Below, piece after piece: positions 6,836 to 41,501 of a DNA stretch of 41,501 bases. This stretch comes from Nanobdellota archaeon. GTDB lineage: Archaea > Nanobdellota > Nanobdellia > Pacearchaeales > GW2011-AR1. The translations under genes and the position numbers were made by a program. Positions within the stretch are counted from its first letter, which is position 1, and every line of letters starts with the position of its first letter. Location of the stretch: the NCBI GenBank assembly GCA_027858295.1, contig JAQICZ010000063.1:1-41501 (forward strand). Direction: 5' to 3'. A model generated the notes under the pieces. It saw only the letters and a program-made list of their open reading frames with translations, was not told where the DNA came from and ran no database searches.

Positions 6836-7060
6836 TAAAATAGCGACAATAAAACCCCTTATAACCTTTTATATAATTCAAAATCACACCATAAATTTAT
6901 AAACGGAAATTTAGGAAAGTCAAATTTTCACATCAGAATTAATTAGGTATTCAAATCGACAACTCCCTCAGATTAAAAGGAACAATATTCTGTTCTAATA
7001 AATCTAACTTGCTCTTAACCAGAACAAAAACAATTAAATATTTAGGTCTCTAACTCCCCA

Positions 7061-7280
7061 TACAAAATTTCGTTAAATCGTTTCGCATCGATTTAACCTG
7101 CCTGAAATTTTGGCACGCCATATTCCAAAAATGAATGGCTAATACAAAATTTCGTTAAATCGTTTCGCATCGATTTAACCTGCCTGAAATTTTGGCACGC
7201 CATATTCCAAAAGTGAATGACTGATACAAAATTTCGTTAAATCGTTTCGCATCGATTTAACCTGCCTGAAATTTTGGCAC
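7061..7280. repeat. 82-bp tandem repeat, about 2.7 copies (TACAAAATTTCGTTAAATCGTTTCGCATCGATTTAACCTGCCTGAAATTTTGGCAC...)
   Basis: Copies start at 7061, 7143 and 7225 (period 82). Each contains a nested hairpin AAATTTC/GAAATTT and TTAAATCG/CGATTTAA. Confidence 0.95.
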
Positions 7281-7283
7281 CCT

Positions 7284-7315
7284 AAATAAAATGCAGAAAT
7301 CAAGACATTTTATTT
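7284..7315. repeat. hairpin AAATAAAATG-N12-CATTTTATTT
   Basis: 10-bp perfect inverted repeat; same arms at 36054-36085. Confidence 0.9.
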
Positions 7316-8409: not shown

Positions 8410-8740
8410 CAAAGTATTATCCCTTGTAGGAATCAGATTTTCAATTTCACTTGAACCTTGTAAAAATAATCATAAAACATTCTACTTGTCACGAACAATT
8501 TCTGCCCGCGCCGCAGGTGATAATTTAATTGCCTTAATAGCTAAGCAACAGCGAATTAATTTTTTAAAATACATTCTTATTTTTTATCCCCTCGGACTAA
8601 AACTCCGAGACCCCTAAATTTGTTGTGAAAATCTTCTGTAGCCATCAATTAAAAACATCTCAGAGACACGAAACTCGAATAGGCAGACCAGTCTTAAAAT
8701 ATGCTTCTTCTCCAAATTTTGACCAAAAATACAATTATTT

Positions 8741-9139
8741 CTAAATCTCAACATAACTTACATAACCTGAAAAAATTGTTCGCTCCGCTCATATAAATTT
8801 TGAATTATCGCCGCTGGCAGAAGCAAATAGTGTAAATTATTTTTTTAAAATTTATGGTATTTTTCTGTTTGAAATATAATATTTGTCCCTGACGAAGTCG
8901 ATAATTAAAGTGTCTTTATTCTGATGCCTTCTCTTGTTTTCACTCTTCAGTTTTCTGAAGCTAAGTGAAAGTATGGTTTACCACGAAATCTATTGAAGGA
9001 ATAAATCCCGAAGCGATTTATGTTAGTAGAGGTACTTGTGAAACGGCGGTAGCGAAGGTCTTTTTTATCTTTAATGAGCTAATGTTGGTAAATATCAATA
9101 AACTAAACTTTTGAGTTAGTCAAAATTGGAAGAAGAACC
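8741..9139. repeat. long dispersed repeat, copy A (inverted relative to 41222-41500)
   Basis: Reverse complement of 41222-41500 with few differences plus a ~121-bp extra segment (8925-9045). Confidence 0.93.
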
Positions 9140-9188
9140 TAAAATATTAATACCATATAATTTATTCTATACAATTCCCAAAATCAAA

Positions 9189-20459: not shown

Positions 20460-21176
20460 ATACCATGCTTTGATTGTAGTTCTCCCATACGCACAAAGCG
20501 AATGGCATTCAACTGAGATACAACCCCATGGAGTAAAACAAGAAACTAAAAACGATTTAAATAACTTATGAAAGCCAACAAATCAAGATATCAACCAGTA
20601 AAGCACTAACAAACCTTCGCAAGCTCAGTAAGAAATTAATAATAATATTATCCACTGCGTTGCGGGCATAAACTGTTCAATTATAACAAAGCAATATTAA
20701 TTTCAATTTCTACCAAAAACAATGCCCCCAGCGGAGCGAATAATTCAAAATATTTTGGCAATAAATGAGACTCCCCGGCCTAAAGCAGTATCTCCGATAT
20801 ATAAAATAAATAAGTGATTTATACAAAAACGATTCTGTCAAAAACACACCCTTCATGCACGCACCGCGAGGGATAATTTAATCCGTCGTTCTGGGTGGGT
20901 GAGAATCTTCTGAAAGTTCTAATAAATCTCAAATGTCAGAGATTTAAAGAAACTTTTACGAAGTTAGAATATTGAATATCAGCGTCATTCCGCAAAAAAA
21001 AAGCTGAGATGAATTTTTGCAATAATTACAAATGATTACAAAATGACAAAAAGTCATCGGAGATACTGTAAAGACGCGGGGTATATCTAAGATAGGCTAG
21101 AGCTTCAATTTTTGTTAATCTTTATCAGAGGAAATAATACCTAACCCTGTTTATCTCCAACCAAGTATGCAACCCT

Positions 21177-21300
21177 GATACAAAATTTCGTTAAATCGTT
21201 TACCAATCGATTTAACCTGTCTGAAATTTTCGGCTAAACAAAGTTTACTTTGTTTTCCCATAAGCCAAGGCAAATGGTTCTTAGCCATATTCCAAGGTGA
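21177..21300. repeat. dispersed hairpin repeat, family T
   Basis: TACAAAATTTCGTTAAATCG-tttaccaat-CGATTTAACCTGTCTGAAATTTTCGGCTAAACAAAG-ttta-CTTTGTTTTCCCATAAGCCAA. Confidence 0.9.
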
Positions 21301-31582: not shown

Positions 31583-32040
31583 ATATCCTATTTAAACATT
31601 ATTACTCAATATGGAATCAAAACAATAATAACCACAGCACAACTAAAGGACTACAACCTCTGCTGATAGGATAAATAAATGAGAAAATGAAAAATAGCTA
31701 ATTGATATAATTGAATTATTCAGTCGCGCTGAATGCAAATAATAATAGGATTTGTCATAGAAGTTTTATATTATTCAACAAAAAACCAATCAACCCCAGA
31801 ATCCAGATAACTAAACTCGGTCGTTGGTGGCGGAGGGGGCGGACCTATGCAATTTGCCTTCTCTCTTCAATTTATTGAAGGAAATAAAACATCGCAGAGT
31901 TTTATGTTAGTAGAGGTACTAGCAAGCAAAATAAAAATTCAATCACGAAGCTAGAACTTCCTGTCTTAATGCATATTGCGGGAGGGAAATAAGAAGTGCC
32001 ACAGCATTTACAATAATTATATAATAATTAATCAAAGAAC

Positions 32041-35627: not shown

Positions 35628-35830
35628 TATACTAAATAGAATTTAATTTAAGAAAGTAACGACTAATCTAATTCTTAGGAATTGGAATAGCTTTATCGTT
35701 CACTTTCATAAAAATAGAATCAAACCTTCTTTTTTAAAAGTTACTATTTGAAACAAGTGACAAAAAAGCATGGCTAACGACTAACTGCCAACAGCCAAAA
35801 CCCAATTAAATATTTAGATTGATAACTCAC

Positions 35831-36150
35831 ATACAAAATTTCGTTAAATTGTTTTCCAATCAATTTAACCTGATTGGAATTTTGGCTAAACAAAGTTTAT
35901 TTTGTTTTCCCATAAGCCAAAGTGAATGGCTAATACAAAATTTCGTCAAAACTTTGCCCCGACTGATTTACATTGAAAACTTTTCCAAGGGTTTTCAATT
36001 GCCTGTAAATTTGTCCACAAGGGTTTTAACCTGCCTGAAATTTTGGCACCCTAAATAAAATGTAGCGACTAAGACATTTTATTTTCCCATATTCAGGATG
36101 CGAATAGCAATTCCACTTATTAACTAAGCGAATGGTGCCTTCTTATGGAT
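35831..36150. repeat. dispersed hairpin repeat, family T (composite copy)
   Basis: TACAAAATTTCGTTAAATTG-ttttccaat-CAATTTAA ... AAATAAAATG...CATTTTATTTTCCCATATTCAGGATGCGAAT. Confidence 0.9.
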
Positions 36151-36618: not shown

Positions 36619-36858
36619 ATTTTCAAAATCCACTCTAAATATAATTATTATTTTTATTATTAGCTGTTGCTTTCTATATTTACTTAACAATTAATTACTA
36701 CACCAACAATTTTGATTTGTTTTTGAATTTAGACTAGGCATTTTCTTACGTTGTGTACTTCCCGTACACGAGTAAGGAAATAACGAAGTATAAATCAAAA
36801 ATGCCTTCTCTCTACAATTTATTTTAGTTAGTAGAGGTACTGGCTTGCGGAAACAAAA

Positions 36859-37653
36859 TTATCCAAGAACTATTAATCCACCTTCAATTATTGCCGCAGC
36901 TATTAACAAAGGAATAACAATATAAAAGAAAGTTCTAATTGCCATCTGGAACTCTCTTCTCAAAGCATTATCTTTCATAAACAAAAAAAACGCTGCAAAA
37001 AACACTAAAAAAGCAACTACAATCAAAAATTTACCAATCAACAAATAAAGAGAAGCCATTAATAAAAAAAATACAACTCCAAACCCAAAAATAAAAAATA
37101 CCTGACCATAAATATTCTTAATTTTAAAATATTTCTCAACAAACTTTCCACCCAACCTCAAGCCGATTCCCAATGAAATGAACAAAGCAGGGAGCTCAAA
37201 AATACCATGAGGGAATAATCTCCACAAGGAAATAATCCCACTTTCTGTTACACTTAAACTAGAAGCAAATCCTAAAACAAACCCATTCATGATTCCATTA
37301 AACAAAGGAAATATTCCAAAAAATAATCCGCCTGCAAGCCCCATAAAAGAAGCTCCCACATTATTTTGAAACAAGAACCCCATCATCTTCAAAGCACCAT
37401 AATCCTTAGTCTGCTCAACTAATTGCTGAAAATAAGCCAAAAGCTGCATACTAATCTCTTCCGGCAAAGGAATAAAAAACCCAAGCAAAGCAAAAAAAAC
37501 AAATATCCCAATCATCATGTTAATATGCTTCTTAGAGTCAATCAAATAAGATTTAGCTTCCTTATATCTACGAGCAAGGAACGAGCCCTTCACCAATGAC
37601 TTACTACTAACAACTGACGACTTTTTCACAACCTTCTTCACACTCTTTACCAT
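36859..37653 (-). CDS. SpoIIM/DUF95-family membrane protein
   Basis: FLFQNNVGASFMGLAGGLFFGIFPLFNGIMNGFVLG; WRLFPHGIFELPALFISLGIGLRLG. Confidence 0.9.
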   Translation of the reverse strand: MVKSVKKVVKKSSVVSSKSLVKGSFLARRYKEAKSYLIDSKKHINMMIGIFVFFALLGFFIPLPEEISMQLLAYFQQLVEQTKDYGALKMMGFLFQNNVGASFMGLAGGLFFGIFPLFNGIMNGFVLGFASSLSVTESGIISLWRLFPHGIFELPALFISLGIGLRLGGKFVEKYFKIKNIYGQVFFIFGFGVVFFLLMASLYLLIGKFLIVVAFLVFFAAFFLFMKDNALRREFQMAIRTFFYIVIPLLIAAAIIEGGLIVLG

Positions 37654-37813
37654 AATAAATACAATTAACTATTTCTTTTAAAGGTTATTAAGAATAATAG
37701 CTCACCCCCAATTTTGGAATTAGTTTTTATCAAGATGCTGTTGATTTAATTTTAGTAAATCGTCTGATTGTTAAAATTAAATTAATAGTATATTGGTGAA
37801 AAATAAACCAAAA

Positions 37814-41067: not shown

Positions 41068-41210
41068 ATTTATGCACGCACTGCGAGGAATAATTAAACT
41101 GCCTTAAAGTGGGTGGGTGGGCTTTCATATCAGCATTATTTCACAGAACAAAAAGCTGAGATGAATTTTGGGAGGGAATAACAAAAATCCCTAAAGGATT
41201 TTTGCAATTA
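41068..41210. repeat. dispersed repeat, family P
   Basis: GCACGCACTGCGAGGAATAATTAAACTGCCTTAAAGTGGGTGGGTGGGCTTTCATATCAGC...GCTGAGATGAATTTTGGGAGGGAATAAC-hairpin. Confidence 0.88.
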
Positions 41211-41221
41211 TAAAAAATAAT

Positions 41222-41500
41222 GGCTCTTCTCCCAATTTTGACTAACTCAAAAGTTTAATTCATTGATATTTAGCAACATTAGCTCATTAAAGACAAAAAA
41301 AGACCTTCGCTACCGCTCAGAATAAAGACACTTTAATTATCGACTCCGTCAGGGGCAAATATTATATTTCAAACAGAAAAACACCATCAATTTTAAAAAA
41401 ATAATTTACACTATTTGCCTCTGCCAGCGGCGATAATTCAAAATTTATATGAGCGGAGCGAACAATTTTTTCAGGTTATGTAAGTTATGTTGAGATTTAG
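41222..41500. repeat. long dispersed repeat, copy B (inverted relative to 8741-9139)
   Basis: See copy A. Confidence 0.93.
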
Positions 41501-41501
41501 A

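Follow-up and report, generated by a model that had tools for sequence, protein, structure and literature searches.

A short folded element, here named M, was found in a 41,501-nt window of archaeal DNA (the whole stretch analysed, equivalent to contig C40 of its assembly), and with a probability of about 0.7 it belongs to a community of mobile hairpin elements that are non-autonomous and depend on structure, and in which at least eight modules insert into each other. The structure of M, its copy number, its precise filled and empty sites, its independent insertions and its nesting were observed directly, and its mobility is well supported. The assembly is a single fragmented, Pacearchaeota-like metagenome bin (1.35 Mb, 64 contigs, 88% complete). 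Archaeal-type chromosomal genes are present in the window, and the sole GTDB match to one window protein was a Candidatus Pacearchaeota genome at 56% identity.

Filled and empty copies of a host repeat

The composite of host repeat A/B and inserted M (filled site; 8744..9139, + strand) matches the reverse complement of 41222..41497 (empty site, − strand), apart from a clean 121-nt insert at 8925..9045 (+); in the empty copy the junction falls between 41316 and 41317. The inverted arms are 97% identical between 8740-8924 and 41317-41501, and 87% identical between 9061-9152 and 41209-41300. The junction is unambiguous, reading TTCTGA^TGCC...AACG^GCGGTAGCG in the filled copy and TTCTGA^GCGGTAGCG in the empty copy, and no target-site duplication was present. 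Both the clean 121-bp difference and the lack of duplication, claimed in the original prediction, were borne out. The same prediction treated the two copies as a pair and raised an inversion of the 32 kb between them. No evidence for inversion was found, and the 396-nt composite gave 81 matches in its own genome: the A/B repeat is a high-copy dispersed family, with dozens of pieces in the genome, and not a special pair. Copies of arm A (8744..8924, +) are 94-98% identical on many contigs, and arm B (9046..9139, +) was placed by comparison of the composite within its own genome. Since numerous contigs terminate inside the composite, it probably limited the assembly. A search of 38 relatives with the composite gave no match.

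Structure of the inserted element

M is about 76 nt long, the longest form reaching about 104 nt, and consists of a closing stem, P1, enclosing hairpins P2 and P3, these three helices of about 68 nt being followed by a 3' mini-hairpin. The consensus fold was derived from an alignment of 21 short-form copies, in which 97% of the pair cells hold standard pairs and both sides change in 10 of the 18 pairs. All three helices covary, with a score of 0.441, compared with 0.155 after shuffling and no more than 0.124 when the pairing partners were slid. Among divergent copies, the covarying arms of P1 include TGCTCCCACT/AGTGGGAGTA and TGTTTTTTCT/AGAAAAAGTA, and further CTCCCACT/AGTGGGAG, TTTTTTCT/AGAAAAAG, CCTAGTCT/AGAATAGG and CCTAGCCT/AGGATAGG. 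For P3 of the type at 9001..9021, both-sided changes were found in six of seven pairs, and the compensated hairpin noticed at the outset (ATAAATC/GATTTAT versus ATAAAAC/GTTTTAT) is real. The conserved single-stranded core comprises TTAG and the AATTTATT loop. In the helices of the M strand, G-T wobbles exceed A-C mismatches (92:3 in P1, 10:1 in P2, 6:4 in P3), and this excess suggests that folding takes place on the strand that reads TGCC...GCG; folding energies gave no clear preference for the M strand over its complement.

The ends of M, TGCC... and ...GCG, were located by the empty/filled comparison and by copies lying head to tail. The mini-hairpin that closes the element shows, by inspection and apart from any statistical test, the compensated pairs TGC-GAA-GCG, TGT-GAA-ACG and TAC-GTA-GTG. 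In longer copies its loop carries the extra sequence GAGTTCTTGTTCATTGCAGAAAATTGGC, and two of these, again by inspection, hold yet another module.

In the insert at 8925..9045, the 5' arm of P1, TGCCTTCTCT (8925..8934, +), pairs with the covarying 3' arm, AGTAGAGGTA (9025..9034, +); the former was placed by anatomy, as the model aligned the nested copy from 8935 on. Between them lie a nested hairpin module (8935..8986, +) and P3 (ATAAATC...GATTTAT, 9001..9021, +). The mini-hairpin TGTGAAACG, of the GNA triloop type (TGCGAAGCG / TACGTAGTG in other copies), forms the right end of M at 9037..9045 (+), an end fixed by the C16 pair described below. The insert had been predicted to be a repeat module. 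It does contain such an element, M, but is not a single unit, because its 121 nt are M plus a nested 48-52-nt hairpin module. The latter was recognised from filled/empty pairs and from M copies without it in C7, C17, C22 and C45; at homologous sites in C7 and C17, the M inserts measure 73-76 nt. Solo relatives of the insert were present as predicted, with refined limits: one at 31855..31927 (+) has P1, P2 and P3 intact (covariance model 87.5 bits, E 9e-20), and the other, at 36802..36850 (+), is truncated, lacks P3, the second hairpin, and stands directly behind the stop codon of a SpoIIM-family gene on the opposite strand (36859-37653).

Independent insertions of M

A 92-nt repeat occurs twice on contig C16, 1.56 kb apart, and 88 of the 92 flanking bases are identical after removal of 76 nt. 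The filled copy (C16:3850) holds precisely one M of 76 nt, whose P2 sequence is different, and the pair has no target-site duplication. This is an insertion independent of that in A/B, for which several empty counterparts exist; the two targets have TGA^GC in common. A lack of independent insertions, named in the original prediction as something that would speak against it, is contradicted by this second exact pair in an unrelated context. At neither the A/B nor the C16 junctions were direct repeats found that could drive slippage.

One M copy, without P3, lies in frame within the gene for the 407-aa pseudouridine synthase TruD (L062 3702-3767, equivalent to C45:23702-23767), just before the conserved C-terminal strand, and adds about 22 residues. 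It must be a gain by the gene. A search of 24 other genomes gave no truD match. The view of the insert as a mobile or exchangeable cassette gains support from the C16 pair, from the at least 12 unrelated flank contexts of M and from its presence inside the conserved truD. A structured, nested hairpin element describes M better than a cassette exchanged at one site.

Candidate enzymes

The absence of target-site duplication, the hairpin structure, the GTAG-containing core, and the intergenic and nested positions are all features that M and its sister modules might owe to descent, as REP- or MITE-like derivatives, from an IS200/IS605-type Y1 (RAYT) transposase missing from the bin. Y1 genes (PF01797) are present in 5 of the 20 genomes searched, some relatives included. 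No IS200/RAYT-type PF01797 match was obtained in the 88%-complete assembly, however, and the ends of the modules have neither a common sequence nor a fixed 5' target, so that we consider this origin unlikely. Like M, the REP, BIME and REPIN repeats are intergenic structured sequences arranged in mosaics (PMC3116915, PMC2817692). In contrast, REPs are single palindromes of 20-40 bp associated with a Y1 transposase (PMC3116915, PMC2817692), which was not found in this genome. M departs from the REP/RAYT group in having a three-helix fold and a mini-hairpin in place of a single imperfect palindrome of 20-40 nt with a conserved end tag, and in the missing PF01797 match. Nor does it fit a DDE-type MITE, as two independent filled/empty sites show no target-site duplication and the arms of P1 are covarying stem arms, not fixed TIRs.

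Two reverse-transcriptase matches were detected, of which one is an intact DGR reverse transcriptase and the other a decayed relative. The intact DGR (L207 1294-3508, at about 14 kb of C51) encodes a 360-aa reverse transcriptase and a 247-aa variable protein, and 13 of the 14 differences in its 70-nt TR/VR pair fall at template A. A second, decayed locus lies in L208 (about 48 kb of C20). The genome also has four tyrosine-recombinase matches. No link of the reverse-transcriptase, DGR or recombinase matches to M was found.

Copy number and genomic contexts

With the covariance model, 48 copies of M were detected in this genome at E<1e-6, while a search of 140 further genomes from the family gave none. 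Because no close relative carries M, its movement has never been seen between strains. Except for two copies, all (46/48) are located outside ORFs of at least 90 aa, non-ORF DNA being 33% of the sequence. Relative to the neighbouring genes, M has the same or opposite orientation in 21 and 19 cases for the 5' gene, and in 16 and 26 cases for the 3' gene. Six copies (window 36802-36850, C4:14111, C30:10416, C43:3043, C3:20224 and C59:3742) stand 4-12 nt behind an opposite-strand stop codon in a common AAAAA^GGAATCAAAA-like context, and window 37790-37813 looks like an M-less version of this context.

These six copies, together with covarying helices that tolerate G-U pairs and the conserved single-stranded core, would fit a structured RNA or a UTR element that is functional (a regulator, a terminator-like element or a small RNA), selected on transcripts and dispersed by duplication. 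Such a role is quite unlikely for M, given its inconsistent orientation to the flanking genes, the lack of any Rfam similarity (five M loci searched with Rfam covariance models, nothing at E<=0.5), its absence from all 140 other family genomes, and the copies in another repeat and in truD, which have no common UTR role.

A viral origin of M was also considered and rejected: a 15-mer of M matches 48 viral contigs, but the covariance model scored these no higher than 19.9 bits, and the best viral match inspected (L092), which is without the conserved TGCCTTCTCT arm, probably arose by chance.

The 48 copies occupy 40 distinct contexts if both flanks must match and 12 if either flank suffices, and several filled/empty pairs could be deletions or could have spread by recombination of the composite. 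It is very improbable that empty sites arose by exact loss of M, through slippage or excision of the hairpin, and that copies spread by composite-repeat recombination, with no transposition. Many copies do travel within A/B and 33 of the 48 can be chained through one similar flank, but the A/B and C16 junctions lack direct repeats for slippage, the members of the C16 pair have 92 nt of unrelated flank in common with a single M as the exact difference between them, the truD copy must be a gain, and at least 12 contexts are unrelated.

Nested modules and insertion into hairpin loops

Insertion of the at least eight module types into one another was recognised by inspection, and often takes place in the hairpin loops of other modules. 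A 57-nt module splits the loop CCACACCCTA^TAAAGGGATGTGG, a 62-nt module the loop GTCAAAACTTT^CAAGGGTTTTGAC, and a 121-nt module the loop CCACATGCTT^TAGCGTGTGG. The 48-52-nt module type nested in M also occurs elsewhere within ATAATAT^ATTATCCACTGCG elements, and a 36-44-nt module, TACCAATGGCATGACCC...GGGCCTCA, was found in A/B and elsewhere.

Filled/empty statistics were taken from an ungapped-HSP scan of the stretches around matches (about 340 kb of the 1.35 Mb). The scan gave 71 filled/empty groups, some of which are tandem repeats or gene repeats. Further empty and filled copies, for which the original prediction had proposed a search, were thus found in this genome; the composite gave no match in 38 relatives, nor M in 140 other family genomes. 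Clustering left 24 near-exact target contexts, and 22 remained after two had been set aside as coding or tandem repeats. The insertion point falls in a predicted hairpin loop in 14 of the 22, as against 8.0 expected (P 0.006, either strand allowed); the median pairing rank of the insertion points showed no effect. A modest preference for loops is suggested by these predicted structures, but is not proof, because some of the contexts are related to one another and intact parents are both easier to detect and favoured by selection.

Another modular hairpin family (ATACAAAATTTCGTTAAATCG...) is present in the window as tandem 82-nt units with nested modules, at 7026-7305, 21171-21277 and 35798-36120.

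A possible mode of propagation

Based on these observations, M may be described as a short mobile element, non-coding and non-autonomous, that would be defined by its single-strand fold. Its insertion would be precise and free of target duplication, and directed mainly to intergenic DNA and other hairpin elements. The A/B repeat would have received M at TTCTGA^GCGG and then been copied in both filled and empty forms. We infer recognition of the folded single strand by an enzyme acting in trans, which would meet M as ssDNA while DNA is being replicated, or as an RNA copy, and would join it to a target that is unpaired or exposed. As a tentative extension, doubtful at present, these elements could represent an as yet undescribed transposition system of DPANN archaea. 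Numerous unrelated hairpin modules would in this case be recognised by fold and not by end sequence and be joined without target duplication into the loops of other folded elements, perhaps via ssDNA or via an RNA/cDNA copy made by the resident reverse transcriptase, building branched intergenic mosaics. Our literature search found no paper linking such hairpin elements to DPANN archaea; its coverage was limited and the result is weak evidence of absence.

The behaviour of M is closest to that of mitochondrial double-hairpin elements and GC clusters, and in part to that of Rickettsia palindromic elements. Repetitive hairpin-forming elements occur in the mitochondria of sponges, and the double-hairpin elements of Allomyces mitochondria are reported to lack flanking duplications (PMC2800124). 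These mitochondrial elements (DHE/RHE) and M are alike in being short dispersed hairpins, intergenic and occasionally in genes, with multiple hairpins in tandem (PMC2800124). M likewise has empty and filled sites and no duplication, a likeness of behaviour and not a demonstrated homology. M differs in its location on an archaeal chromosome, its three-way-junction fold with a covarying closing stem and its many nested module families. An organellar location and shared ancestry with DHE/RHE were rejected in view of the archaeal-type chromosomal genes and the Pacearchaeota GTDB match. The GC clusters of yeast mitochondria are palindromic modules that merge and shuffle (PMC4478555), and like the modules of M they have stand-alone and merged forms at homologous sites (PMC4478555). 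They are flanked by short AG/ACT direct repeats (PMC4478555), whereas M has none. The Rickettsia palindromic elements resemble M in being small and palindromic and in forming several families, and they insert in frame into genes (PMC10969869). They are about 150 bp and often genic (PMC10969869), in contrast to M, which measures about 76-104 nt and lies outside ORFs in 46 of its 48 copies; an in-frame position is seen in the one truD copy of M, nearly all others being intergenic.

Hairpin elements that move without duplicating their target have been described chiefly in mitochondria. The dozens of M copies and the several sister modules, with stems that covary and filled and empty sites that are exact, provide a dataset for tests of structure recognition, of loop targeting and of the choice of strand.

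Repeats in the genomes of the family

Repeated sequence makes up about 31% of the non-ORF DNA in 79-kb samples of this genome and 0-15% in five relatives, the samples being unequal in size and some of the relatives' repeats lying inside genes. Repeats amounting to about one third of the sampled non-coding DNA may help to explain why the genome is about twice the size of those of its genus relatives. A 1.2-Mb genome of another genus (G018) has its own unrelated, intergenic-looking hairpin repeats, GGCAACCTT...AAGGTTGCC, at 5900-18100 of L200 (contig 2), and the large genomes of the family may therefore share the phenomenon with different sequences.
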